From NCBI GenBank assembly GCA_022539475.1, contig VCMS01000471.1:1-25868 (forward strand): 25,868 bases of DNA. The letters run 5' to 3'. A model generated the notes under the pieces. That model saw only the letters and a program-made list of their open reading frames with translations, was not told the DNA's origin and searched no databases. A program made the translations under genes and the position numbers. Of the stretch, positions 507 to 18,326 are shown one piece after another. The DNA comes from Gracilaria domingensis (lineage: Eukaryota > Rhodophyta > Florideophyceae > Gracilariales > Gracilariaceae). The first letter of the stretch is position 1. Each line of letters begins with the position of its first letter.

Positions 507-1078
507 TGTAGTATAGCTCGGCCAGATCAACGGGGGCTCTACAAGACCAAGTGGTGACGTCACGGGCTCCCGGGCACGTGTGTCTACTGTACCACGTGGG
601 ACGCGCAAGCGCAGGCTTGGACAGGACTAATTAGTCTATTTTCGATAATTTAGAATTAATATTTACTAGGTAGTGTAGATATGTGGCCGGGGTGGTGCAC
701 CACAAATGCACCTCCCGGTGGCCCACGTGGCACTAGGCCCGTGAGAGCCGGAGGGGCGCTCGGGTGTACTAAACCCCCGAGACGCCAACCTCCCACACCA
801 AATGGTAAAGTCAAGCACCAACTAGGCTAATTTGACACCAGTTCGGTTCTACAGTCACCAATTGGTAAGTCTAGTAGTCCTCTAATAGTTTTGCTGACCT
901 CGAGGGTTATACGTGCCTGCCGCACACCAGTGCAGGCGTATTTACCACTTGGTCACCGTGCACTATAGGCAACGGCGGGTGCTGCCGACCTATTAGGTGT
1001 CACGCGTTTCACTCCTCCGCCGGGTCGAGCCCACGCAGGGCTCCCCACTAGCAGCTCGCACCGATCGGTTATACCACA
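507..1078 (+). repeat. 5' LTR (572 bp)
   Basis: It begins TGTAGTATAG and ends TATACCACA, and matches 11665-12236 base for base as far as can be read. It contains a perfect TGACGTCA (555-562), CACGTG cores at 574-579, 593-598 and 724-729, and an AT-rich stretch at 630-670 that may be promoter DNA. A GC-rich hairpin (GCCTGC/GCAGGC arms) lies at about 915-938. Six CCANNTGG palindromes lie inside (547, 592, 723, 798, 858, 945). U3/R/U5 borders cannot be set from sequence alone. Confidence 0.95.
555..562. promoter_or_regulatory. CRE-like palindrome TGACGTCA in the LTR
   Basis: A perfect 8-bp bZIP/CRE consensus lies 48 bp into the LTR and abuts the ACCAAGTGGT palindrome at 546-555. The same site is at 11713-11720 in the 3' LTR. 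Several CACGTG cores lie nearby. ACGT-core sites are commonly bound by bZIP or bHLH factors. Function here is inferred. Confidence 0.45.
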
Positions 1079-1083
1079 TATTT

Positions 1084-1096
1084 TGGTCTCCCGACC
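1084..1096 (+). other. Putative primer-binding site
   Basis: TGGTCTCCCGACC lies 5 nt after the 5' LTR and starts with TGG, the complement of a tRNA CCA end. The implied tRNA 3' end has A73 and G72, hence C1. A C1-G72 pair with A73 is characteristic of eukaryotic tRNA-Tyr, so tRNA-Tyr is a tentative primer. The host tRNA set is needed to confirm. Confidence 0.5.
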
Positions 1097-1211
1097 TAGA
1101 AATCTGTGGATTACCAAGTGGTTTTGGGAAGGGAGGATTTGGAAGTCACGAGATACCTGAGTGGTTTGGTTGCCGTTGCCGAAGCAATTTGCTCCGACAC
1201 CAGTTACCTAA

Positions 1212-2801
1212 ATGGAGAAACGGAGCGTCCGTCACCCGAAAAGGGCGCCGAGCGCTCCACCAAGTGGCCACCCCGTACGGGGTTCGGTGTCCTATCCGGT
1301 GTTGGATAACCCGGAGGACCTGATTCGGAAGGAACGCCCACCGAGGGGGAAGAAGGAAGACCGAGAGGCTGGGGGCCCCTCGACCCTTCCCCGGGCTGAC
1401 CAAGTGGACGGAGGAGCAGGCTCCGCAAGGGCGGAGCCCGCTCCTGTAACAACCCCAGTGGTAGACCAAATGGAGGTGCCAGTCGGACCGCGACTGGACT
1501 TGGACGAGGTCACCCGAGTGGTAGTTGATCGAGCCTCCCAGGAGGTCCTCGACAAGGTACCTGTGGTGGTGTTACAGTACCTCGAGAACGAGGTACGAGG
1601 ACACATCGACCGATTGGTTATGCTGGCTCTGCAGCAGCAAGGGGCTAAGCTTCAACCTGAGATGGTGGCCCAGGCCGCGCTCATGAAGCAAGCTCCCCCG
1701 CCTGCAGTAGACGCCACCAAACCACTTGGTATTCTCCACCCTAACCTTCCTACACAACCGACTGGTGAAGGATTTATCGACCGCATGGGGAAAGGGGCAG
1801 AGCCTCCAGGGATGGAGGGCCCGAGGTACGTTTACCTCCCCCAACCTACTGGTGTAGCTCCGTCAGGACCAAGTGGTGGAGACCCTGATGGAGATTCGTC
1901 GAGCTCAGGAGACGAGCGTCGACGTAAACCAAATGGTAAGAAGAAGAAAACCAAAAGGGGAAAGAGAAAGAGTCGCCGGTCGGACTCGGACTCTTCGTCC
2001 TCAGACACCGATTCGGATTCGTCAGGAGACGACGACCGTACAGGTTCACGACGCAAGAGGAAGGACTCTCGCAAGAAGAAAGGAAAGAATCCCCGCAAGG
2101 GTAAGACCAAAAGGTATAACGATTCGGACTCAACTTCCGACGAGGAGACTGACCTAGAGGTGCTTACGCCGCTCAATGATTTATTCACCAAAGCGGTTGA
2201 CTATCGTACCTATAGGTTAGAGAACAGACAGGCTGAGTATACCAAAGAGGTAGCTCAGAAGATAACGAAGCATCATAGGAAGCTTCGTTTCCAACTGGGT
2301 GAAACTCGCTTTAGCGGGGATGACCCTATTGCGATCATTGATTTCCTTCAAAGGTTCAAGATCGCTTGTGATCAGAATGGGTTTTCAGAGGCAGCAGCCA
2401 TGTGGCTGTTTCAATTCTACCTAACTGGTCAGGCTGGAGCGTTGCTCCACAGCCGCCTCCAAGGAAACACCATGGCGGTGGACGAAGACCAAACGGAAAT
2501 GTTGACGACATACCCACAGGTGGTTCACTTCCTACTGGAAACCTACGCGACTGATGAGGTAATCCAGGAGGCGTACGCAGAGGTGCTTGCGTACCGCCAG
2601 CGCGCGGGACAAACCGAATTGGAATTCGCTCGCTCCTTATGGGCATTAGCCTCCCGCTGTGGAAGCGTCTTTACTACCAAAAGGTTGAAATCGATGTACG
2701 CCGACAACGTGGCGAAGTCTATCCGATCACAGGTTCGTAACTACCTAGCTACCAACCGCACGGTCGACTGCAACGCACTAGCCCGCCATGCACAGGACTA
2801 G
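1212..2801 (+). CDS. gag: Ty3/gypsy Gag (capsid portion), ends at a TAG
   Basis: This ATG-started ORF of 529 codons follows the 5' LTR and a 133-nt leader. Residues about 220-310 are an unusual run of alternating basic (KKKKTKRGKRKSRR) and Ser/Asp-rich blocks, which could serve in nuclear entry or nucleic acid binding. Residues about 345-520 look like the retrotransposon capsid domain, with motifs such as FQLGETRFSGDDP and AYRQRAGQTELEFARSLW. The ORF ends at TAG 2799-2801, before the zinc knuckle that normally closes Gag. The missing part is found downstream at 2961-3476 in the same frame. In between, the plausible protein sequence moves through other frames, so the gag end is broken or misassembled here. 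Confidence 0.85.
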   Translation: MEKRSVRHPKRAPSAPPSGHPVRGSVSYPVLDNPEDLIRKERPPRGKKEDREAGGPSTLPRADQVDGGAGSARAEPAPVTTPVVDQMEVPVGPRLDLDEVTRVVVDRASQEVLDKVPVVVLQYLENEVRGHIDRLVMLALQQQGAKLQPEMVAQAALMKQAPPPAVDATKPLGILHPNLPTQPTGEGFIDRMGKGAEPPGMEGPRYVYLPQPTGVAPSGPSGGDPDGDSSSSGDERRRKPNGKKKKTKRGKRKSRRSDSDSSSSDTDSDSSGDDDRTGSRRKRKDSRKKKGKNPRKGKTKRYNDSDSTSDEETDLEVLTPLNDLFTKAVDYRTYRLENRQAEYTKEVAQKITKHHRKLRFQLGETRFSGDDPIAIIDFLQRFKIACDQNGFSEAAAMWLFQFYLTGQAGALLHSRLQGNTMAVDEDQTEMLTTYPQVVHFLLETYATDEVIQEAYAEVLAYRQRAGQTELEFARSLWALASRCGSVFTTKRLKSMYADNVAKSIRSQVRNYLATNRTVDCNALARHAQD

Positions 2802-3476
2802 GCGACACCGTTCGGTCAGGGGCCAGGAAGACTCCGCACCACTTGGCAAACCATCGAAGGAGAAAGGAAAAACCAGGCGGTCAGTGTTTGACGTAGAGGA
2901 AGAGGAGACCACTACGGGGAGGCGTCCACACAATACGCCTCCCAGGGTCACCCAGTCCACTTGGTGCATGCACAACCGACAACTCGATCGCACGGTAATA
3001 CCTCTTGGTCCAGCTCGCTATCCAGCGAGCCACCCTCGAGACAAACCTCAGCTCCACCATCACAGGTATCCGTACCGGTCAGCCCGGTCCTAGCGGTACC
3101 ATTCAAGCAATATGGTGAACGAGGACCACCCCCGCAGCAACGGAGTGCAGTACCTACTGGAGGCCGTCCCCCATCGCGCGCGTCGTCGCTCGCGATGAAG
3201 GACCCCACAACCGGCAATCTCCTCTGTTGGTTCTGTTTGTCGCCTCACCACTTGGCCACAGCGTGCCCAAGTGTGGCTCCGCAGAACAGGAACGCTCTCC
3301 TGACTGCTCGCCAGCAGAACCACCAGGATATATTTGGGCCCCCGGCGCGGAGCGCAGGCACGGGACACGCAAATGCGCGACCCAATGCAGCCACACCTCA
3401 TCAGGTACACCTCGTTACGGAGCAGGACCAAACGGATCCCGCCCCGCAGGCGGAAAACGCCGAACAGTTGGGATAG
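2802..3476 (+). pseudogene. gag: Gag C-terminal part with CCHC zinc knuckle, disconnected from upstream gag
   Basis: In the gag frame there are stops at 2799-2801 (TAG) and 2889-2891 (TGA). Gag-like linker sequence appears in frame 1 around 2840-2960 (GKPSKEKGKTRRSVFD and an acidic run), then returns to the gag frame from about 2950. The downstream part is Ser/Pro-rich and then has CWFCLSPHHLATAC, a perfect C-X2-C-X4-H-X4-C nucleocapsid knuckle at about 3224-3265. It ends at TAG 3474-3476, overlapping pol, which is in the -1 frame. The simplest reading is two or three single-base deletions, real or from sequencing. Confidence 0.7.
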
Positions 3477-5038
3477 AGGCCTTCCCCAACTGTCCGAAGA
3501 CGGAAGGCCTTCCAGAACCAAGTGGTGCAAGTATGGACAATTACCCATTGGTTACAGGGGAGGAGAGCCTCATGGACGGCACCGAACCGATATGCTTTCT
3601 CAAGCATAGTAACTATAAGGTAAACGTCACCCTCGGGTTTACTTCTAACCACTTGGTACCATGCGTCACTGTCCTGGACACCGGGGCAGGACCTAATCTG
3701 GTGAATGCCAAACTATTAACTAACAGACAACGTAATAAGCTTCAGCCATGTACATTAACTAACCCACTGGTTGACGCCAACAACAGACCACTAACCGTCA
3801 TGGGAGCGCTTACCATAATGGTATTGATTGACACCATGAGGGTCCGAGTTCGCTTCATAGTCGTTAACCAACTGGCAACAGACTGTGTCCTCGGAACAAC
3901 TTTTATAGACCAGCATGTCAGGGCAATTTTTCCACGTTCTAAGACAGTTCTGTTCCATAATGGCCCCCGGATCGCCATTATTGGTAACCACAAGGGTGCC
4001 TCTCCGAAAGAGAACCGCACTCAACACCAACCGGTCCCGGAAAACACACTCTCCAACAAGGTGCGATTGGCAAAGGCGGTAACCATACCGTCTATGAACC
4101 ACTTGGTAGTGAAGGTCACATGCCAACAACCTGGCCTGTTATCCATTCAGAACCATTCACGGTTGGCCGAACGACACATGACCTTAATGGCGAATGGTAT
4201 AGTCGACAACATACCGACAAAACCGTTTCAGGTCTACCTGAGTAACTTCAGCAACCGCCCGGTCAAGTTGCCAAAGCACACCGTAATCGGTCTTGCCTTA
4301 CCGGCTCCCCGTACGATCTTTACAATTATACCACAATGGTCCCACGAGGTCGTGGATGCTAAGGAAGGGGGGGGCAGTGTCAATTCGTTCAATTCGTCGA
4401 ATTCGTCGCGAACAGACCATATGGTGCAGCGACTAGCTGAGCGAGAAGACCAGAAACTGGAGCTCGACCCAGTGACCAATTGGAAGACGGAGGTGAATAT
4501 AGGACTTGAAGGGGAAGAGCTCAGAGCTCGGATCCTTGGACTCCTGGAGCCATTCAGTACCATGTGGTCGGGTAAGCTGGGAGCCATTAAGGCCACCCAG
4601 CACAGGATTGACCTCAAACCGGACTCCCGTCCCATCCACCAACAGCCATACCGCGCGGGACATAAGGCCCGTGAGGTAGAGCTGGAGGAGGTAGAGCGGA
4701 TGCTCCGCGAGGGGGTTATAGAACCGGCAAACTCGGAATGGGCTAGCCCTGTAGTGCTAGTCCAAAAACGAGGAGAGACCCGTATGAGGTTCTGTATTGA
4801 CTACAGAAAACTTAATGCCGTAACGGTAAGGGACTCGTACCCCATCCCGAGGATGGATGAATGCATCGACTCCCGAGGAGATGCGAACATCTTTACCACA
4901 CTGGACGCGAACTGCGGGTATTGGCAGATCGAAATACCAGAGGGTGACCGTGATAAGACTGCGTTTACATGCCACGCAGGCCTGTATCGCTTCTTACGCA
5001 TGCCGTTTGGTTTAAGAAACGCCCCCGCTACCTTCTAA
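3227..5038 (+). CDS. pol: Pol, first segment: protease and N-terminal reverse transcriptase, ends at premature TAA
   Basis: This frame is -1 relative to gag and overlaps its end. There is no convincing ATG (the open frame begins at a TTG), so a frameshift fusion to Gag is expected. It carries the aspartic protease motif LDTGAGPNLV (catalytic Asp codon 3677-3679) and then reverse transcriptase with blocks such as WASPVVLVQK, RFCIDYRKLN, TTLDANCGYWQI and MPFGLRNAPATF. The frame is cut by TAA 5036-5038 directly after ATF, a position usually held by Gln in this family. The same frame resumes immediately with the rest of RT, so this is a nonsense change, not an indel. Confidence 0.88.
   Translation: MVLFVASPLGHSVPKCGSAEQERSPDCSPAEPPGYIWAPGAERRHGTRKCATQCSHTSSGTPRYGAGPNGSRPAGGKRRTVGIEAFPNCPKTEGLPEPSGASMDNYPLVTGEESLMDGTEPICFLKHSNYKVNVTLGFTSNHLVPCVTVLDTGAGPNLVNAKLLTNRQRNKLQPCTLTNPLVDANNRPLTVMGALTIMVLIDTMRVRVRFIVVNQLATDCVLGTTFIDQHVRAIFPRSKTVLFHNGPRIAIIGNHKGASPKENRTQHQPVPENTLSNKVRLAKAVTIPSMNHLVVKVTCQQPGLLSIQNHSRLAERHMTLMANGIVDNIPTKPFQVYLSNFSNRPVKLPKHTVIGLALPAPRTIFTIIPQWSHEVVDAKEGGGSVNSFNSSNSSRTDHMVQRLAEREDQKLELDPVTNWKTEVNIGLEGEELRARILGLLEPFSTMWSGKLGAIKATQHRIDLKPDSRPIHQQPYRAGHKAREVELEEVERMLREGVIEPANSEWASPVVLVQKRGETRMRFCIDYRKLNAVTVRDSYPIPRMDECIDSRGDANIFTTLDANCGYWQIEIPEGDRDKTAFTCHAGLYRFLRMPFGLRNAPATF
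4358..4374 (+). repeat. Internal polypurine tract, copy 1 (in pol)
   Basis: GCTAAGGAAGGGGGGGG lies in the protease-RT linker. The same 17-mer recurs at 7781-7797. Polypurine tracts resist RNase H and prime plus-strand synthesis, and a second internal tract would act like the central tract of lentiviruses. Role inferred. Confidence 0.5.
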
Positions 5039-7414
5039 AGAGCGTTAGACATCATACTGTCTAAAGTGAAGTGGACAACCGCATTGGTATACATAGATGA
5101 CGTAGTCATCTACTCGAGGTCCATAGAGGAGCACTTCTCGCACGTCCAAGTGGTACTGCAGTTGCTACAAGAGGCAGGCGTGACCCTCAAACTACGAAAG
5201 TGTATGTTCTTCAACCAAGAGGTAGAGTACCTAGGGCATACAATAAGCCCCGGGAAACTCGAAGTGACCAAACGGAATATCCGAGCGGTACAGGAAGCGA
5301 AGCTCCCTACGTCGCAAACGGACATACGATCCTTTATAGGTCTATGCAACGTTTACCGGCGGTTCATCAAGGGTTTTGCAAAGATAGCCGCACCCTTGAA
5401 CCGGAGGTTGCAGAAGGGGCAGCCCACACACTTTGACCACCTGGAAGAGGACGAGGTAGAGGCGTTCTATACATTGAAAGCAGCGCTTCTCTCCCCACCG
5501 GTACTGGCATTGCCCAAAACGGGACTCCCGTATACACTGGACACGGATGCGTCGGACGCCCAAATAGGTTGCTGCCTAATGCAGGAACAGGAGGACGGCA
5601 AGCTCGCACCAATTGGGTATTGGAGTAGAGCTCTTAACCAAGCGGAGCAGAACTACACCGTAACGGAGAAGGAATGCCTAGCGGTTGTTTGGAGCATGCT
5701 CATGCTACGTCCTTACCTATATGGTGTGCGCTTCACGCTCCGAACGGATCACGACTCCTTGAGATGGATATTAGGCTTGGCGGACGCATCGGGTCGTCTG
5801 GCCCGATGGCGTCTGAGACTCTCGGAGTTTGAGTACGATGTGCAGTACCGCCCCGGGGTCAAGCACCGAGTGGCGGATGCATTGTCCCGGTTGAATACCG
5901 AAGGATTGGACACTGACCCAGTGGACGACGACATCCCATGCTTTACTATAGAACTAGCTAACCACGAGGTCAATGAAGTTCTGAAGGGATATTGGCATGA
6001 TGACAGTACGTACCAAGTGGTAGTGGAGACCCTCCTTCCTGTGGAGGAAGGGGAACACGCTCCAATCACCCGTGAGGAATTCTTACGCGAACAATCGACC
6101 GATAGGTTGTGCAAAACGCTCGCTGACGTACTTGGAAGGAAGGATTCTCATTTCGACGTCGACCACAATGGGTACCTCATCAGACGCTCACCTTTAGACG
6201 GAGCTCTCCAGAAGGTCGTACCTGAGTCATTAAGACAAAGGGTGTTATATCTGTCACACAATCCACGGCTTTCGGGGCACCCTGGAGCCACGCGGTTGTA
6301 CTATACCCTTCGGAGGCAATTCTACTGGCCGCATATGGCTAACGATGTATATACCTATGTGGCGCAATGCAATTCGTGCATTAAGACCCGAGGTGGTGTG
6401 GCGAAGCACAGGAAGTACCTGAAGCTATTCCCGGCGGCGGGGCCCCTGGAATTCGTAGCAATCGACATACTGGGGCCCCTGCCCAAGACCTCAGAGGGTT
6501 ATCGCTTTGTAGTAGTCATAACCGACAGGTTCACAAAGCTCACCAGAGCCATACCCCTGAAGAACCAAACGGCAACGACACTAGCGACAGCCTTCCTGGA
6601 GAATTGGGTCTACCCGTACGGTGCTCCCATGTACCTACTGACCGATAACGGTTCGAACCTAGCTTCTAAGTTCTTCGAGGCGGTTTGTACAATGCTAGGG
6701 GTCAAGCACTACTTTACCACGGCCTATCATCCGCAAACAAACGGCCAAGTGGAACGCTTCAATAAGACCCTAGTGGCACGCCTACGGCACTATGTCGAAG
6801 AGCACCAAACCACATGGTCGGAGTATGTCCAACCATTGACATATGCGTACAACCTCCAGGTCCACAGGGTCACTCAAACAACCCCATTCGACCTGGTACT
6901 TTCGCGAACACCACATGGTATTATCGTCCAGCCCGGACCTGACCGCTCGGAAGCGGCCGGGACACTCACACCGGCGAAGGTCAAGAGAGACATACTCCAG
7001 AAGTTACGCGCCGCTTTGGCTGCTGCCAAAGTTAAGATGACAGCAGCCCAAGAACGGTATAAAGCGGACTATGACCGAACGGTGAGCAAAGTGACCAAAG
7101 TGGTAGCAGGAGACATGGTCTTCCTCGACGTGCCACCAAAAGGTAAGCGACCAACCCCAGCGGAGATGGAAGAGGACATCCGCCTTGAGGAGGATATCAA
7201 TTCTAAACTACTACCCAAGTCCACGGGACCATACAAGGTGATTCGCTCCGACGAGCATACCGCTACGGTCATAATGGAAGGTTTGGAGAACACGGTCTCC
7301 ATCGACAGGATTGTCAAGGCCGCACAACCGACGACAGCGAATGCACAACCAATAGGTGAGCCAACGCAGCAGGAAGCGGAGAGGGAGCAAACGTCTCCCA
7401 TACCCCCCCTATGA
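5039..7414 (+). CDS. pol: Pol, second segment: C-terminal RT, RNase H, integrase
   Basis: It continues the frame of the first pol segment after the in-frame TAA. It contains the RT catalytic box YIDDVVIYS (Asp codons 5096-5101), the RT connection and RNase H (LDTDASDAQIGCCL, TEKECLAVVWS, TDHDSLRW, HRVADALSRL), and integrase. The integrase has an HHCC zinc domain (H and H before WPHM, then CNSC at about 6365-6380), the catalytic D,D,E set (FVAIDILGPL, LLTDNGSNL, VERFNKTL), and a GDMVFLDV C-terminal motif. It ends at TGA 7412-7414 after a C7 run. The order RT-RNase H-integrase is diagnostic of Ty3/gypsy. Without suppression of the TAA this segment would not be joined to the N-terminal RT. Confidence 0.9.
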   Translation, partial: RALDIILSKVKWTTALVYIDDVVIYSRSIEEHFSHVQVVLQLLQEAGVTLKLRKCMFFNQEVEYLGHTISPGKLEVTKRNIRAVQEAKLPTSQTDIRSFIGLCNVYRRFIKGFAKIAAPLNRRLQKGQPTHFDHLEEDEVEAFYTLKAALLSPPVLALPKTGLPYTLDTDASDAQIGCCLMQEQEDGKLAPIGYWSRALNQAEQNYTVTEKECLAVVWSMLMLRPYLYGVRFTLRTDHDSLRWILGLADASGRLARWRLRLSEFEYDVQYRPGVKHRVADALSRLNTEGLDTDPVDDDIPCFTIELANHEVNEVLKGYWHDDSTYQVVVETLLPVEEGEHAPITREEFLREQSTDRLCKTLADVLGRKDSHFDVDHNGYLIRRSPLDGALQKVVPESLRQRVLYLSHNPRLSGHPGATRLYYTLRRQFYWPHMANDVYTYVAQCNSCIKTRGGVAKHRKYLKLFPAAGPLEFVAIDILGPLPKTSEGYRFVVVITDRFTKLTRAIPLKNQTATTLATAFLENWVYPYGAPMYLLTDNGSNLASKFFEAVCTMLGVKHYFTTAYHPQTNGQVERFNKTLVARLRHYVEEHQTTWSEYVQPLTYAYNLQVHRVTQTTPFDLVLSRTPHGIIVQPGPDRSEAAGTLTPAKVKRDILQKLRAALAAAKVKMTAAQERYKADYDRTVSKVTKVVAGDMVFLDVPPKGKRPTPAEMEEDIRLEEDINSKLLPKSTGPYKVIRSDEHTATVIMEGLENTVSIDRIVKAAQPTTANAQPIGEPTQQEAEREQTSPIPPL

Positions 7415-7785
7415 TGAGTCAGCCGAGCGGTCAACCTTCCACCAGAGCCGTAACGGCTGACCCCACGACCCAAGCGGCACAGGAGATCGAGCCTCGGCAA
7501 GACCAACGGGTCACACCACCCACGGGGAGCCACGCACCCCATGACCAAATGGAAGAGTCACACCCTCAAGTAGACACTCAGGAGTGCGCTATTGACACCA
7601 TTGTAGGTCACGAACACACCACAAAGGGTATGCGCTACCGGGTAAAATGGTATGGATGGTCGCCCGAGCACGACTCTATGGAACCACCTGGTCATATCCC
7701 TAACAACTTCATCATCCGATACTGGCGCAAACAAGGGCGAACGCCCCCACCAACTGGTATTGCTTCGCGTGGTACGCGTCGCTAA
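7411..7785 (+). CDS. Chromodomain-containing C-terminal ORF of the gypsy element
   Basis: This ORF of 124 codons starts at an ATG that overlaps the pol stop (ATGA, 7411-7414) and lies in the -1 frame relative to pol. The N-terminal half is Gln/Pro/Thr-rich linker. Residues about 62-110 form a chromodomain-like fold, with RVKWYGWSPEHDSMEPP and an adjacent FIIRYWRKQ helix. Chromodomains at the integrase C-terminus define chromoviruses and direct integration to marked chromatin. It may be joined to integrase by -1 slippage at the C7 run (7403-7409), translated by stop-start reinitiation, or really be fused and split by a one-base error. TAA 7783-7785 sits at the start of a G-rich tract. Confidence 0.8.
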   Translation: MMSQPSGQPSTRAVTADPTTQAAQEIEPRQDQRVTPPTGSHAPHDQMEESHPQVDTQECAIDTIVGHEHTTKGMRYRVKWYGWSPEHDSMEPPGHIPNNFIIRYWRKQGRTPPPTGIASRGTRR

Positions 7786-7801
7786 GGAAGGGGGGGGGGG
7801 G
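7781..7801 (+). repeat. Internal polypurine tract, copy 2, with G12 run after the chromodomain ORF
   Basis: GCTAAGGAA followed by twelve G covers the stop codon of the chromodomain ORF. It is where the terminal polypurine tract would be if the element ended after pol. The true terminal tract is at 11653-11662, so the region between appears to be an added module. Confidence 0.55.
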
Positions 7802-7894
7802 TATCGAAGCCGTTGAAAGCCACGCTACACGAAAAGCTAACTAACTAACCTAACAGGAAAACAAAAGAAGATCAGAGATCACAATGCAAGACAC

Positions 7895-7900
7895 TTTATT
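7895..7900 (-). terminator. Poly(A) signal AATAAA for the antisense ORF
   Basis: TTTATT on the plus strand reads AATAAA on the minus strand, about 40 nt after the antisense stop codon. This supports a separate antisense transcript that ends before the G12 tract. Confidence 0.5.
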
Positions 7901-7938
7901 AGTCGAGAAGAATCCACGAGAGCGAACCACGAGGTGAC

Positions 7939-10665
7939 TTAGGAGGCCTTGGAGGACCCACGGCCACGTCCGCGTCCACGACCGGTTCCACGACCGCGAC
8001 CACGTCCACGGGAGGTCCCGCGAGATGAAGCGGAACCTCCACGACCAGAGGACACCGACACAGGTCCGGCGGAGCTTCCACCCCCGCCGCTAGCCGCGCT
8101 CGCTGGCGCACCACCACTTGGTAAGGGAGCAGAAGTACCAGCAGGTCCCGCAGGGGTACCGCTGCTGACTACCGGCATGATATTCGCAGGACCAGTGGGT
8201 GGATGGAAGGAAGGCGGTAAGCTAGACGGAGGGATGCCACCAGAGGTCGGAGGAGCAAGACCACTAGACGGCCCTGCACCGGGGGTCAGACCAGTAGGCG
8301 GCATAGGAGCACCGGACGTCGACGGAAGCGGAGCCGAACGGAAACCAGTTGAGAAACCACTTGGTGCTCCTGTCCCAGTACTTGCTGGAGGAAGAGGAAC
8401 GTTGTGAGGACCAAGCGGAGTATGGAAAGGTGCCGAAGGATCACCACCAGGAGGTCCACCAGGGAGTTGATACGTACCAAGGCCACCAAAGCCTACCATT
8501 GGGGTCGCAGGTTGCTGTGACGCAGGAGCGTACGGGTTGAAACTTTCCACAGAGGGTCGATGTAACGGCGCGTGGCCTTCCACAAGGTTGCTCAACTGAC
8601 CAACATAGGCTGTCACCTCACGGTAGAGATTGCGCTGGAAGTAGTCGCGGAACTGTCGCAGCTCAGAAGTGCGCCGCTCGTGGTGAGCAACCACAGGGAG
8701 CAAGTTGGTAAGAGTATCCACAGCAGTGAGGATGTCATTTGGACCAGGACGGTTGAAGTGCACCATCGAGGCGTGGTTGAGACGAGCCAGAGCGCTCCGT
8801 ATCGCGCCACTATCACCACCAGGGGGCACCGGATTCACCGGAAGCGACTGGAAACCAACCCGAAGAGGCCCCTGGGCAGCCCGTCCGGGAGGGTGAGCAG
8901 CCGCCTGAGGGTTCGCCGGACCACTTGGAACAGGAGCAGCCACGCTGGTCGGAGGAGTAGCCTGTACAGGTGCCGACGGAGGCAATGCGGGGGACTCATA
9001 GTTCTCGGCAGCCACCATCACGGTATCGTCATTACCAAATGGGTCTTCGCCAGCCATGTGCTGCTGTTGGAGAGGCACGATGCTATGAACCTCCGGGTCG
9101 TAGACATCCCAACCCTGTTCAGGCCCCCAATTGTGGTTACTTACCGCAGTGAGGTAACTATCCAACTGCTGCGCAGTATATTTGGTGCCCTCCACGATGT
9201 TGGAGAGCCCCATGGCACGAATGTCGCCGACCACATCGTTGGGAATATTGAAGATACGACCAACTGGTTGAGTTCCGCTGATCCCGACAGACTTGTCAGG
9301 GCAGCGCGTGTCCCAAGTCACACCTTCCACGGAAGCCTGAAGGGCGAGGATAGCCACCATGACGGCCCACTCGCTGCGCGCGACCGACCAAACGGCATAT
9401 GCGTTGTTCCTCTCGAGGGAGATGCTACTACCAAAGTACGCAAGGACCGGCGGGGTCGGCACTTCCAGCCACTGACATACTTCATAGTGGTCCCACCAAG
9501 AGGGTCGATTGACATACCATGTCCGGCGGTTGTGGTCGCTCTGCGACCAATACTCAACGTTGTGGAACAGGAACATGGTCCGCGTACGGTTGTTACGGTG
9601 ACGAACACGGCTCTCAGCCATCGCATCGGTCGCCCACCTCCCACGGTCAGTCCAATAATTGGTATCTAAAGGGCGCTCAAACGCGACGTACTCCAGATCG
9701 ACCTCGATGTGCGTAGCAGGTTCGTCCAAGCGGTGAAGGATATCTACCAAACGGCGGAAGTAGTGGACCTCCCCATCGCAGCGGATGAAGGGGAGATCCG
9801 ATGGTACGGCCACGGGGATGTAGTATAGAAACTTCGTGTGTCGCTGCCGCGCATGGAAACACTGCTGTCGACCGAACTGGCTCTGCTTCTCGCCCTTGCG
9901 TGGTGGAGGAGGTGCCATAGGCACCGCCTCCAACCGGCGACAATCCCAACGGGCAATTGCGGTATACTGCGTGAGACCCATGTGGCGGAACCGCAAGGGA
10001 CAGAATGAGGAACTGATGTGGAAAGGCCAGTTCCCCAGAGCGACCAATTCGGCGGAGATATCGGCAAAGCGTGCATCATAGTGGGCATGCGGCTGCCCGT
10101 GCGTCCTATTAAGGTCATGAGGATTCAGCTGTTGAGCCTCCACCGTACCGGCCACCGCAAGAGGGTTAACATTGCTCGGACCCGCGACGGCCGCGTAGGG
10201 ATCATACCCACCGCGACCGTAAGGGTCTTGACGAGAGCGCGTATTCGACCGCGTGTTAGGCTTGAAGATGCCACCGCCGCGGCCGCGCGCTACCCCAGGG
10301 GTCTTGCCAGACATCCTCGACCGGGAGGCAACAGTTTCGCGAACCGAACGGTTGACCTCCGCCGAGGGGGAGACTTCAGAAGCCGAATATCCCTTTATAG
10401 GGTCATAGTGCGGCTCCTCCAATACCAAGTGGTTGGCCACCACGGGGGCCTCGGCGCCCGATGGAAAGGACACGGGTGTACCGGTCTGGGACGGCAGACA
10501 GGGCTGCGAAGAGTCAACCACGTGGTAATTCGGTTGAAACGGCGCCGTCTCACCCCCGGGGTCCACCACACCGGGAAGGGCGCGAGTGATGCCCTCCTCG
10601 GCACCGTCTTCACGGCGTTCGAACGTCATCGACCACCCCGTTGGGGAAGCGGGTTGATCACCCAT
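7939..10665 (-). CDS. Antisense 908-aa protein of unknown family within the retrotransposon
   Basis: A single uninterrupted frame is encoded opposite to gag-pol. The first ATG is at 10665 (MGDQPASPTG); the open frame extends to a TTG at 10716. Stop TAA is at 7939-7941. I recognise no known family. Visible layout: a low-complexity N-terminus with Gly/Arg patches (GVARGRGGGIF, about residues 120-135); a probably folded, Trp/His/Tyr-rich core (about 190-560, e.g. YWSQSDHNRRTWYVNRPSWW); a helical segment near 620-700; a long Pro/Gly/Ser-rich stretch; and an RG-repeat tail of about 40 residues (RGRGRGRGTGRGRGRGRG) that suggests nucleic acid binding. No signal peptide or membrane segment is seen, so it is not an obvious envelope. 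An AATAAA lies about 40 nt beyond the stop. It is intact while gag-pol is broken. Confidence 0.75.
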   Translation of the reverse strand: MGDQPASPTGWSMTFERREDGAEEGITRALPGVVDPGGETAPFQPNYHVVDSSQPCLPSQTGTPVSFPSGAEAPVVANHLVLEEPHYDPIKGYSASEVSPSAEVNRSVRETVASRSRMSGKTPGVARGRGGGIFKPNTRSNTRSRQDPYGRGGYDPYAAVAGPSNVNPLAVAGTVEAQQLNPHDLNRTHGQPHAHYDARFADISAELVALGNWPFHISSSFCPLRFRHMGLTQYTAIARWDCRRLEAVPMAPPPPRKGEKQSQFGRQQCFHARQRHTKFLYYIPVAVPSDLPFIRCDGEVHYFRRLVDILHRLDEPATHIEVDLEYVAFERPLDTNYWTDRGRWATDAMAESRVRHRNNRTRTMFLFHNVEYWSQSDHNRRTWYVNRPSWWDHYEVCQWLEVPTPPVLAYFGSSISLERNNAYAVWSVARSEWAVMVAILALQASVEGVTWDTRCPDKSVGISGTQPVGRIFNIPNDVVGDIRAMGLSNIVEGTKYTAQQLDSYLTAVSNHNWGPEQGWDVYDPEVHSIVPLQQQHMAGEDPFGNDDTVMVAAENYESPALPPSAPVQATPPTSVAAPVPSGPANPQAAAHPPGRAAQGPLRVGFQSLPVNPVPPGGDSGAIRSALARLNHASMVHFNRPGPNDILTAVDTLTNLLPVVAHHERRTSELRQFRDYFQRNLYREVTAYVGQLSNLVEGHAPLHRPSVESFNPYAPASQQPATPMVGFGGLGTYQLPGGPPGGDPSAPFHTPLGPHNVPLPPASTGTGAPSGFSTGFRSAPLPSTSGAPMPPTGLTPGAGPSSGLAPPTSGGIPPSSLPPSFHPPTGPANIMPVVSSGTPAGPAGTSAPLPSGGAPASAASGGGGSSAGPVSVSSGRGGSASSRGTSRGRGRGRGTGRGRGRGRGSSKAS

Positions 10666-11652
10666 GAGGTATAAAAGGCGCGAGTTGGAGCGAGAGCGTG
10701 CCACGGAGGATACCAACCGAGAGGGGGAACACCACCAATTGGATGACTAGATGAGACCTGAGGGGTCACAGAGAACGGGCACGCCGCTCAAGCGAGCCGA
10801 CACACCGTGAAAATGACCAGGGTTGTGCGCCGGCTGGACGGGTTCCGTGAACAAGGGAGGTCACAACCACCCCAGAGGGAACCTAAGGGATGGAAGGAGA
10901 CCGCGAGGAACCAGGTGGAGGGGCGTTGAACGCCGCGCAGTCGGGTAAACCCCTCGGCTGGACCTGAATCAAGCCTGAACACCACGATGAGGCAGACCAC
11001 TAGGTAGAAACGGCGTCAGCACCGGTACGGTCACGAAGTCTGAAGAGCCACGGGCAGGAGTCTCCTCACCCTCGACGCGGCCGCCCAAGGCAACGACACC
11101 CCAGTGGCGCCCTCACTCAAGCAGAGAAACAGTACGTGTCGGAACCAACGAGGTATCACCTCAGTACGGCACGGGACCAAGTGGCCAACGAAGAATAGGA
11201 GCGACACCACGAGGGGGCGGTGTGCCGATCGGTTGACAACGGCGAACCCCACCGACGGGAGGCTCGAAACCAACTGGTAAGCCGGGACTAACCCGCCCAG
11301 GGGGAGGACGGATAGGGGAAGATGGAGTGGCGGACTCCTTCGGGAGGGACCGAAGAGGCGAAGACAACCACGTGGTACCAGGCGCGCGACAAGATCAACC
11401 TGAATGGTCGCGGTTCGCGGTTTCGCGTTCCAATACCACGAGGGACGTAAGGTACGGTCGCACCTACCACAGGGGGGTACGGCGGCGTGGGTAATGGCGC
11501 TGCAGTGCATGTGGCGAACCGCGCCGTGCACCGCGCCATCTTCGCGTCATCGCGAGACGCGCCGTGCGCCAGGCGATGCGCGCCGACGACCGTTTGGTGA
11601 AAAGGCGGCAAACGCCGTGGGAACTTCGCAGCCACGGGGCGTGCCTGTCGGT
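10666..11652. other. Spacer between antisense ORF and 3' LTR; likely antisense leader/promoter
   Basis: About 1 kb without a convincing gene. Short minus-strand frames here (for example 11031-11531) begin with GTG codons and show no recognisable protein. It holds five CCANNTGG palindromes (10735, 10911, 11177, 11270, 11368) and a very GC-rich block at 11490-11640. By position it should contain the promoter of the antisense gene, but no clear minus-strand TATA box was found. Confidence 0.4.
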
Positions 11653-11662
11653 AGGAGGGGGG
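11653..11662 (+). other. Terminal polypurine tract
   Basis: AGGAGGGGGG followed by TC sits immediately upstream of the 3' LTR TG. This is the expected position for the plus-strand primer of an LTR retrotransposon. Confidence 0.8.
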
Positions 11663-11664
11663 TC

Positions 11665-12236
11665 TGTAGTATAGCTCGGCCAGATCAACGGGGGCTCTAC
11701 AAGACCAAGTGGTGACGTCACGGGCTCCCGGGCACGTGTGTCTACTGTACCACGTGGGACGCGCAAGCGCAGGCTTGGACAGGACTAATTAGTCTATTTT
11801 CGATAATTTAGAATTAATATTTACTAGGTAGTGTAGATATGTGGCCGGGGTGGTGCACCACAAATGCACCTCCCGGTGGCCCACGTGGCACTAGGCCCGT
11901 GAGAGCCGGAGGGGCGCTCGGGTGTACTAAACCCCCGAGACGCCAACCTCCCACACCAAATGGTAAAGTCAAGCACCAACTAGGCTAATTTGACACCAGT
12001 TCGGTTCTACAGTCACCAATTGGTAAGTCTAGTAGTCCTCTAATAGTTTTGCTGACCTCGAGGGTTATACGTGCCTGCCGCACACCAGTGCAGGCGTATT
12101 TACCACTTGGTCACCGTGCACTATAGGCAACGGCGGGTGCTGCCGACCTATTAGGTGTCACGCGTTTCACTCCTCCGCCGGGTCGAGCCCACGCAGGGCT
12201 CCCCACTAGCAGCTCGCACCGATCGGTTATACCACA
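11665..12236 (+). repeat. 3' LTR (572 bp)
   Basis: Same length and apparently the same sequence as 507-1078. It follows a polypurine tract at 11653-11662 and is followed by the duplicated CTGAT. It carries the same six CCANNTGG motifs (11705, 11750, 11881, 11956, 12016, 12103). Confidence 0.95.
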
Positions 12237-16664: not shown

Positions 16665-18326
16665 ATGGCAGGACCGAAGAACAGAAGCGCCAAAACTCGG
16701 GGTAAGCCCAAAATGTCGCGCTCGCAGTTACGCGCTTCCCTGGCCTCATCAAGCAATGAGGCGAATGCATCCCCGTCGTCTGCTTTGAGGAAGCGCAAGG
16801 CTGAGACTCAACTGAGCAGGCAGCAGGAGGAACCGGATACCGAAACGGTGTTTGAAGATCCCTACGGCGATGAGTATGAAGAAGAACGCCAGAGCGAAGA
16901 TGAACAACCCCGCGCCGAGATTCGGGACCCCATGATGGTCAACGCCGCGGTTGTGTTTAGACCCGGCAAGGATAAAGTTGGTGAGGGTGAAAAACTCGTC
17001 TATGATCAAACTGCATATGATCAATATCATCGTTTCACGATGGAATGGCCGTCTCTGTCGTTTGATTTTATATGTTCTGATGCTAGTGGTGAATACAGCA
17101 ACATCTCACCATTGCTCCAACAAACATATCCCATGAATACCACCCTTGTGCTTGGCTCTCAAGCAGGTACCAATTCGAAGAACAAACTCGTGTGTCTCAA
17201 GGTGACCAATATGCATAGAACAAGTAGCCGCAAAGGAAAGCCGAGCGCGGTCAAGACAGTGGGTGCCGAAGATGACTCGTCTGACGAATCTTCGGACGAT
17301 GAAGACGATGAAGGAGACAGTGACCAAGAAGAAGATAAGCTCTCACTACCAAGTCGAAATCCGGTTTTGCAGAACGTTGACATAAAATTCGACTCCGTCG
17401 TCAATCGTATTCGCACAATGCCCCAGCATCCGAACATTGTCGCTGCGTGGAGTTCTTCTGGTCGATTCTATATCACAGATGTGGCTCCTGCATTGGACGT
17501 TTTGAACCTGGATAGTCGCCGAAGAATGAGACCACCAAATTCCATTTCACCCTCTAACATCAAGCCCATGTACTCTTTCAGAGGTCATGGAGTGGAAGGT
17601 TATGCGTTGGATTGGAGCCGAGTTGCGGAGGCACATATGCTCACTGGAGCATTAAACGGAAGTATATATTTGACTCAACCATCAAATCGAGAAGGGGCCG
17701 CGTTCACTACATCTCCGGATCGTTACAGTGGTCATCGAAAGTCTGTGGAAGACATTCAATGGTCTCCCAATGAACAAAATGTTTTTGCTAGCTGTAGTGC
17801 AGATAAATCAATACGGATATGGGACACTCGGGAAAGAAGACGGAATGCTCTCGCTATCGAAAAAGCGCATGACGCAGATGTCAACGTGATTTCCTGGAAC
17901 AGGAACGAAACCCATTTGATAGTGAGTGGAGGAGATGAGGGTTTGGTCAGGGTCTGGGATATGCGATATTTGACCACTGCAGGTGATGGAGGACCTAAAG
18001 CGGCTGCAGAATTTAATCAGCACACAAAACCAATAACCTCCGTGCAATGGAACCCTACCGATACTTCTATGCTCTGCGTCAGTTCAGAGGATGGAACTGT
18101 ATCAGTGTGGGACCTTGCTGTTGAACGAGATGCAGAGGAGGAATTGCGAGAAGGTGTGGTGCTTTCTGGGGCGGATGAATTTCCACCGCAGCTTCTTTTC
18201 GTCCACATGGGGCAAGTGAATGTTAAAGAAGCGCAATGGCATCCGTCATGTCCTTCTCTGATCGTTAGTACCGCTGAGGATGGCTTGAATTTGTTTCAAC
18301 CCTCCAACATCACTTCGCCCGTATGA
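16665..18326 (+). CDS. GRWD1: Ribosome assembly protein GRWD1/Rrb1 (glutamate-rich WD40 repeat protein)
   Basis: The start ATG 16665 has a strong context (AACCATGG). The open frame upstream lacks another ATG. The protein is 553 aa. After a basic N-terminus and acidic patches (EDPYGDEYEEERQSEDEQ and SSDESSDDEDDEGDSDQEED) comes the conserved domain with YDQYHRFTMEWPSLSFDF, then WD40 repeats with typical endings (SIRIWDTRERRR, LVRVWDMRY, TVSVWDLAV), and the family-specific end LLFVHMGQVNVKEAQWHP and STAEDGLNLFQ. In yeast and human this nucleolar protein chaperones ribosomal protein L3 during 60S assembly. It is somewhat longer than human GRWD1 (446 aa) because of the acidic linkers. No intron is needed. 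It converges on the NUS1-like gene 161 bp downstream. Confidence 0.93.
   Translation: MAGPKNRSAKTRGKPKMSRSQLRASLASSSNEANASPSSALRKRKAETQLSRQQEEPDTETVFEDPYGDEYEEERQSEDEQPRAEIRDPMMVNAAVVFRPGKDKVGEGEKLVYDQTAYDQYHRFTMEWPSLSFDFICSDASGEYSNISPLLQQTYPMNTTLVLGSQAGTNSKNKLVCLKVTNMHRTSSRKGKPSAVKTVGAEDDSSDESSDDEDDEGDSDQEEDKLSLPSRNPVLQNVDIKFDSVVNRIRTMPQHPNIVAAWSSSGRFYITDVAPALDVLNLDSRRRMRPPNSISPSNIKPMYSFRGHGVEGYALDWSRVAEAHMLTGALNGSIYLTQPSNREGAAFTTSPDRYSGHRKSVEDIQWSPNEQNVFASCSADKSIRIWDTRERRRNALAIEKAHDADVNVISWNRNETHLIVSGGDEGLVRVWDMRYLTTAGDGGPKAAAEFNQHTKPITSVQWNPTDTSMLCVSSEDGTVSVWDLAVERDAEEELREGVVLSGADEFPPQLLFVHMGQVNVKEAQWHPSCPSLIVSTAEDGLNLFQPSNITSPV

Follow-up and report, generated by a model that had tools for sequence, protein, structure and literature searches.

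A short, mirror-symmetric DNA word is repeated throughout a retrotransposon of the red alga Gracilaria domingensis, and it is under selection both at synonymous positions of the genes and in the noncoding long terminal repeats (LTRs). The element occupies positions 507-12236 of the window, by which we mean the whole stretch of 25,868 nucleotides analyzed here (contig VCMS01000471.1). The consensus of the word is ACCA-NN-TGGT, in which CC-N4-GG is the strict part and A/T is preferred both outside and inside it. The element also encodes a long open reading frame (ORF) antisense to its other genes, and our preferred reading, to which we assign a probability of about 0.48, is that a dimer of its product would bind the dispersed dyads, so that the element would recognize itself and counter its silencing, in the manner of VANC proteins and VANDAL transposons.

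Exact counting located 54 copies of CCANNTGG within 507-12236, six per LTR and 42 in the interior, against three in 14.1 kb of flank (18203, 21073 and 22041). The preliminary description had the number per LTR right, and every one of the 26 starts that it listed is correct, but it counted 38 sites between the LTRs and missed the flank site at 18203; sites of the form ACCANNTGGT, which it took for the majority, make up half (21 of 42 internal). Its claim of an excess over chance is borne out. In 300 dinucleotide shuffles the internal region gave 3.75 +/- 1.85 copies (maximum 10) against the 42 present, and an LTR gave 0.25 against 6, whereas the right flank has 3 against 2.6; the host flank carries no excess.

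The word itself could be refined. Among all 64 three-base half-words, scanned at gaps 0-7, CCA leads at gap 2 with 42 sites, the next having 16. The stronger word is ACC-N4-GGT, with 57 internal sites against 4.2 in shuffles, and when 256 dinucleotide pairs were scanned without bias at 16 gaps, CC-N4-GG ranked first (196 against 78.8, z 13.3). Larger gaps between CC and GG average 78-79 internal sites, CC-N3-GG stands at 89 against 79 in the element, and in the flank CC-N4-GG is found 33 times against 38, the top z of any pair there being 5.1. One-base variants at gap 4 reveal that the inner CC/GG is strict and the outer A/T soft. Weaker forms are present inside the element at the next two spacings (32 ACC-N5-GGT and 18 ACC-N6-GGT), which we regard as secondary because part of the N5 class consists of N4 cores extended by a C or G; ACC-N7-GGT is marginal (9 against 4.3, shuffle maximum 10), and ACC-N3-GGT (6) and ACC-N8-GGT (2) are not enriched among internal sites. 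With ACC, ACCA and CCA as halves and gaps of 0-30, neither direct nor everted arrangements gave a comparable peak, leaving the inverted orientation only. The half-sites ACCA and TGGT and the dimer originally proposed to contact them are supported, and the word is corrected to a strict CC....GG that prefers spacing 4 over the secondary spacings 5 and 6.

The 57 internal ACC-N4-GGT sites span 1113-11598, with starts at 1113, 1609, 1721, 1757, 1844, 1868, 1928, 2106, 2152, 2208, 2512, 2676, 2755, 2807, 2872, 3000, 3517, 3543, 3629, 3648, 3762, 4026, 4098, 4254, 4416, 4559, 4936, 5214, 5961, 6012, 6098, 6521, 6809, 6852, 6910, 7074, 7135, 7348, 7502, 7683, 7749, 7926, 8113, 8137, 8191, 8356, 8446, 8615, 9089, 9259, 10343, 10424, 10517, 10996, 11269, 11367 and 11589. 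The weaker forms lie within 1155-11408 (N5 starts from 1155 to 11398, N6 starts from 1559 to 9636). The 5' LTR (507-1078, plus strand, 572 bp) holds 12 CC-N4-GG dyads; its ACC-N4-GGT sites start at 546, 710, 797, 857, 944 and 1060 and its ACC-N5-GGT sites at 837, 897 and 988 (span 546-1069), and all are repeated 11158 bp downstream in the identical 3' LTR (11665-12236, plus strand). The density of ACC-N4-6-GGT is about 1 per 100 bp across LTRs, genes and spacers. A regular placement along the element was considered and rejected, as the positions of the N4 sites match random ones (coefficient of variation 1.04, random 0.97). In the assembly as a whole (680 contigs, 77.9 Mb), ACCANNTGGT is found 4164 times and the reversed word 1620 times. 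Close pairs, with two ACC-N4-GGT sites no more than 40 bp apart, number 961, against 160 when the word is reversed.

We give virtually no credence to the idea that composition, codon use, tandem repeats or chance account for these counts. It has in its favor that the base composition of the element departs from that of the flank, with A exceeding T on the plus strand; it is countered by the dinucleotide and synonymous shuffles, by the gap-shifted controls and by the conservation described below, and a single short tandem array is present (7958-8010). In 500 synonymous-codon shuffles per ORF, ACC-N4-6-GGT fell from 21 to a mean of 5.5 (maximum 11) in the gag-like ORF (1212-2801, plus strand, 529 aa, with 12 ACC-N4-GGT), from 20 and 23 to means of 5.3 and 4.9 (maximum 11 each) in the two parts of pol, and from 23 to 6.4 (maximum 13) in the antisense ORF. 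These are 3.6 to 4.7 times fewer sites per ORF, in agreement with the earlier argument that coding is not the cause, and shuffles of the pol genes of two sister families likewise fall short, so that codon use is rejected. Two host gene frames have no dyad excess. The N4 sites occupy all three codon phases in gag and in both pol parts, as had been noted for pol, and site density is 8.7-15.7 per kb in the LTR and spacers and 8.2-13.2 per kb in the genes.

Evidence for selection comes from other copies of the element, which we cut from the G. domingensis assembly as loci labeled L with a number. The most informative comparison is with L061, which is 80.7% identical to the window element over 7.4 kb. 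We examined third positions of codons in which the amino acid and the first two bases are unchanged, and set the changes against a codon-matched expectation. Within ACC-N4-GGT cores 2 of 52 such positions had changed, where 13.8 were expected; the retention at synonymous positions that a selected site should have is therefore found within the family. The deficit extends to ACC-N4-6-GGT (9 of 103, 26.3 expected) and CC-N4-GG (15 of 125, 33.7 expected), with CC-N5-GG at 19 of 92 (25.9) and CC-N6-GG at 8 of 61 (15.3). Control words have no deficit, the changed and expected numbers being 18 and 15.8 for CC-N20-GG, 33 and 35.1 for CC-N9-12-GG, and 25 and 24.5 for GG-N4,5-CC.

The noncoding LTR behaves similarly: 1 of 54 bases in ACC-N4/5-GGT cores differs from L061, against 65 of 518 others (P 0.013), although the contrast is weaker for CCANNTGG (3 of 36 against 63 of 536, with 4 of 6 sites kept). 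Whole sites are also retained, L061 keeping 43 of 71 ACC-N4-6-GGT sites against 503 of 1124 control arrangements (45%; P 0.01), with 24 of 36 at N4 and 13 of 20 at N5; for CCANNTGG the contrast is weak (14 of 25 against 87 of 193 controls). Two N4 sites lost in L061, 10343 and 10424, are spacing-5 sites there. In five pooled copies (L050, L052 and L058-L060, our own choice from 30 cut-out copies), core bases differ at 45 of 1212 positions, other ACC/GGT words at 202 of 2548 and the remainder at 1484 of 19717; the Fisher probability of 5e-7 for cores against other ACC/GGT words is nominal, because the copies share ancestry. In 12 of 13 copies compared the cores have diverged less than the remaining sequence, and in L050 the two are level (4/186 against 70/3305). 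The dyad is under selection as DNA at synonymous and LTR positions alike.

After correction for base composition, the main base preferences around the strict core are mirror-symmetric and so resemble those of a dimer contacting duplex DNA: the outer A and T are 2.37 and 2.39 times background, and the inner A and T 1.98 and 1.97 times. At the window N4 sites, flanking positions 2-5 have no excess of pairing beyond 60 against 52 at one position, and at outer position 2 pairing is below expectation (33 against 50.3). This symmetry, together with the lack of wider base pairing, points to double-stranded DNA. The proposal of a selected recognition site for a dimeric protein, with which this work began, is accordingly strengthened by the conservation of synonymous and LTR cores and by the mirror-symmetric preferences, and such a site is what we putatively consider the dyad to be.

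The word might instead act in RNA, for instance as numerous small stem-loops through which Gag would package the genomic RNA. Spacings are cut off sharply at the short end and trail off towards longer loops, and genomic RNA would be covered by sites throughout, both of which fit this idea. Besides the symmetry and the missing outside pairing, however, G-U variants in the window are no more favored than their mirror images, no other three-base palindrome at gap 4 exceeds 10 sites against 57 for ACC-N4-GGT, and GG-N-CC is at most weakly raised (N4 95 against 75 in the window, N5 74 against 49 in L061). With no base pairing found beyond the fixed word, packaging stem-loops are disfavored and a role in RNA is very improbable. 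A basic helix-loop-helix (bHLH) E-box was also considered and rejected: CANNTG is not invariant, inner A and T being found together in 48 of 208 CC-N4-GG sites, and the E-box core that the preliminary description pointed out is incidental because the strict part is CC....GG.

The preferred spacing of the dyad differs between families. Four elements were read at length, namely the window element, L061, L062 and L063, all of which carry the antisense ORF; the latter two belong to distant sister families in the same genome, their pol being 54% and 53% identical to that of the window. Spacing 4 is preferred in the window and in L061 (top dyad CC-N4-GG, 110 against 51). In L062 and L063 the top dyad is CC-N3-GG (98 against 35.8, z 10.3, and 63 against 20.6, z 9.5); CC-N4-GG is elevated there too, at 80 and 44. 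The positions themselves have mostly turned over: 18 of 97 coincide in the pol of the window and of L062, where comparisons at ten offsets gave 4-12.

Sequence flanking the copies widens this picture somewhat. Flanking elements with a related gag (L025, L016 and a short L052 piece) carry N4 and N5 dyads (45 and 49 against 17.2); L025:1-1499 and L016:2076-3572 are fragments of other elements, whose gag is 35% and 47-60% identical to that of the window. The other 24 flank segments (31.6 kb, nine duplicates removed) have no N4 excess (99 against 93.6), with 122 for N5 and 146, 144 and 133 for N6 to N8. Most of the excess at N6-N8 comes from four segments, L050:4216-5742 (N7 31 against 11), L028:2074-3572, L058:1-350 and L004:2073-3572. 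These are possibly further families with longer spacing; the lead at N7-N8 is based on about 4.9 kb. Five flanking ORFs compared with Pfam gave one family over the cut-off, Pol_BBD in L003.

The antisense ORF (7942-10746, minus strand, 935 aa), the candidate reader of the dyads, evolves as a protein under purifying selection. Its ratio of nonsynonymous to synonymous substitution (dN/dS) is 0.15 in the comparison with L061 and 0.19-0.27 for four other copies, with pol at 0.11; the other frames tested gave 1.4-2.0, except the sense frame that mirrors the antisense codon positions (0.26). Matches in the genome are 78-100% identical, and 25 of the 30 cut-out copies, which include the window's own and three partial ones, have no stop. 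Related ORFs in the sister families sit antisense downstream of pol. By tblastn the window protein matches L062 at 31% over 75 aa (E 6e-7) and L063 at 25% over 59 aa (E 1e-4), and in an alignment of the C-terminal half the proteins are 22-23% identical across families. A search of the genome with the L062 antisense piece, in which 101 of 217 candidates were scored, yielded 102 matches with identities as low as 28%; at least 11 of these are in antisense some 3.2 kb past an RNase H match (150 rows, compared by eye). The first 70-110 residues of this piece recur widely, some of them in frames of 790-827 aa. Beyond the genome, the antisense protein had no homologue at E 0.001 (7997 and 7993 candidates scored, from 5.8 billion proteins), and none in phages, solved structures or the viral contigs searched with pol.

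If these observations are brought together, a dimer with flexible spacing would bind ACC-N4-6-GGT sites, and the product of the element's own antisense ORF would most likely be that dimer. We favor it as reader because it is encoded by the element, conserved, diverging faster than pol, and has relatives in the families where the spacing differs. Binding at many sites per copy would let the element recognize its own integrated copies in trans, and the spacing may serve as a family address, a diverged antisense protein going with a shorter preferred spacing (N3, then N4). The least certain and most speculative step is anti-silencing, in which the chromatin of proviruses would stay open despite host repression, in the way that VANC proteins act on VANDAL elements. 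A broader form of this proposal, a clade of LTR retrotransposons with private spacings (N4, N3, perhaps N5 and N7-8) written into synonymous positions and read by each family's antisense protein, which would coat the copies, is one that we put forward tentatively and consider rather doubtful.

Several observations weigh against the antisense protein as reader, or against parts of the proposal. It has no recognizable DNA-binding domain and matches no Pfam-A family even at E 10, and single-sequence AlphaFold2 models were unusable (pLDDT 33.6 and 30.8). Its sequence link to the L062 and L063 ORFs is a short stretch, and the link between ORF and dyad is one of co-occurrence in three families, all of which have the ORF. 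Parts of the sister antisense ORFs (L062:5758-6999 and L063:3042-4250) are not enriched in their own dyad (N3 z -0.2 and 1.6), an argument against uniform coating. In the pol genes of L062 and L063, enrichment over synonymous shuffles is equally strong for both spacings (N3 z 8.4 and 6.6, N4 z 8.1 and 6.8), so that the shift of spacing is partial and not a clean switch. For N6 sites, retention in L061 (6 of 15) does not exceed that of the controls. The next inner position of CC-N4-GG is left-right asymmetric (A 87 on the left, T 38 on the right, of 208 sites), with symmetric neighbors. Finally, the whole assembly has no match to a C5 DNA methyltransferase, which makes demethylation as in Arabidopsis an unlikely effect; any target would lie in features of chromatin apart from cytosine methylation. 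Transposons of red algae are reported to be silenced through methylation of H3K27, and the assembly has four Piwi-domain matches.

Who else could read the dyads? Another protein of the element might do so, either integrase or Gag during packaging or nuclear entry of the complementary DNA, with the antisense ORF serving otherwise. In its favor, pol too is present in the sampled families, and L025 and L016 carry N4/N5 dyads where an antisense ORF was not seen, but we think it unlikely: pol is 53-54% identical between families, against 22-23% for the aligned part of the antisense protein, yet the spacing changes, and integrases are not known to require dispersed internal sites. Recruitment of a dimeric DNA-binding or architectural protein of the host is in our judgment more unlikely still. 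Symmetric short half-sites are typical of many host transcription factors, and the dyads lie in LTRs as well as in element bodies; on the other hand, the preferred spacing varies between families within one host, for which an element-encoded reader is a better fit than a host bHLH factor, and neither the host flank nor the 24 flanking segments have an N4 excess.

The element belongs to the Ty3/gypsy LTR retrotransposons, with two identical 572-bp LTRs, TG...CA ends, a 5-bp target duplication (CTGAT) and domains in the order reverse transcriptase (RT), RNase H, integrase. The gag-like ORF has no Pfam family above cut-off and is related to the gag of the flanking elements in L025 and L016. In the same frame, an ORF at 2892-3476 (plus strand) contains a CCHC-type zinc knuckle (CWFCLSPHHLATAC), recognized by eye; Pfam gave no match to this ORF, the knuckle included. 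The pol frame (3119-7414, plus strand; Ty3/gypsy-type RT, RNase H and integrase by translation and Pfam) is split in the RT region by an in-frame stop at 5036-5038 in the window copy, while the frames of other copies are open, many at 1552 aa and up to 1571 aa. An LTR search of the assembly gave 290 candidates, and the 40 scored are all at 98-100% identity. That the host is a red alga is borne out by fourteen phycobilisome linker matches, which are spread over nine contigs; four of them lie on C680, a contig that we read as the plastid.

Short words read by proteins are known from other systems. In bacteria, matS, KOPS and Chi run through coding DNA and are used by a DNA-binding protein or enzyme, though they serve chromosomal housekeeping and no mobile element. 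TnpA of Spm/En binds a repeated short subterminal motif of its own element and counters its silencing; unlike the window dyads, these motifs are confined near the ends of a DNA transposon. VANDAL elements are Mutator-like DNA transposons, whereas the element studied here is an LTR retrotransposon. According to the portions of two reports available to us, VANC proteins of Arabidopsis bind short family-specific motifs of their own VANDAL transposons and remove silent chromatin marks, and the motifs lie in noncoding tandem repeats and have diverged between related families (PMC5735166, PMC10398659). As far as those portions go, the window element is similar in carrying many copies of a short family-specific motif that diverges between related families, here across the four elements sampled. 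It differs in that its dyads are dispersed through all ORFs and spacers and not in tandem repeats, are palindromic, are constrained at synonymous positions and differ between families in spacing, and in that no match to a C5 methyltransferase was found in its host.

The antisense ORF has counterparts in position. In the available parts of PMC7264820 and PMC11963269, ORFs in antisense orientation that follow pol and precede the 3' LTR are described for Grande (gene23), RIRE2, Retand (TRP28) and Boty; the Grande product is nuclear, TRP28 is predicted to bind DNA, and their function is stated as unknown. Reports of such ORFs, from retrotransposons of plants and fungi, go back at least to 1997, with no function assigned (PMC7264820, same limitation). 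The extra ORF of the window sits in the same place and orientation. It differs from these ORFs in its red algal host and in that PF04195 (TRP28) was not found, the window protein matching no Pfam family and PF04195 being absent among the L062 and L063 matches at E up to 10. Dispersed dyads are not mentioned for the four elements in the parts of those papers at hand (PMC7264820, PMC11963269).

In this red algal element, then, an antisense ORF co-occurs with a strongly selected, family-specific DNA dyad spread over the whole element. If the preferred reading is true, self-recognition and anti-silencing would extend from VANDAL transposons to retrotransposons, a regulatory code would lie over the coding sequence and be paid for in synonymous freedom; in the broader form of the proposal, the unexplained antisense ORFs of LTR retrotransposons would gain a role.

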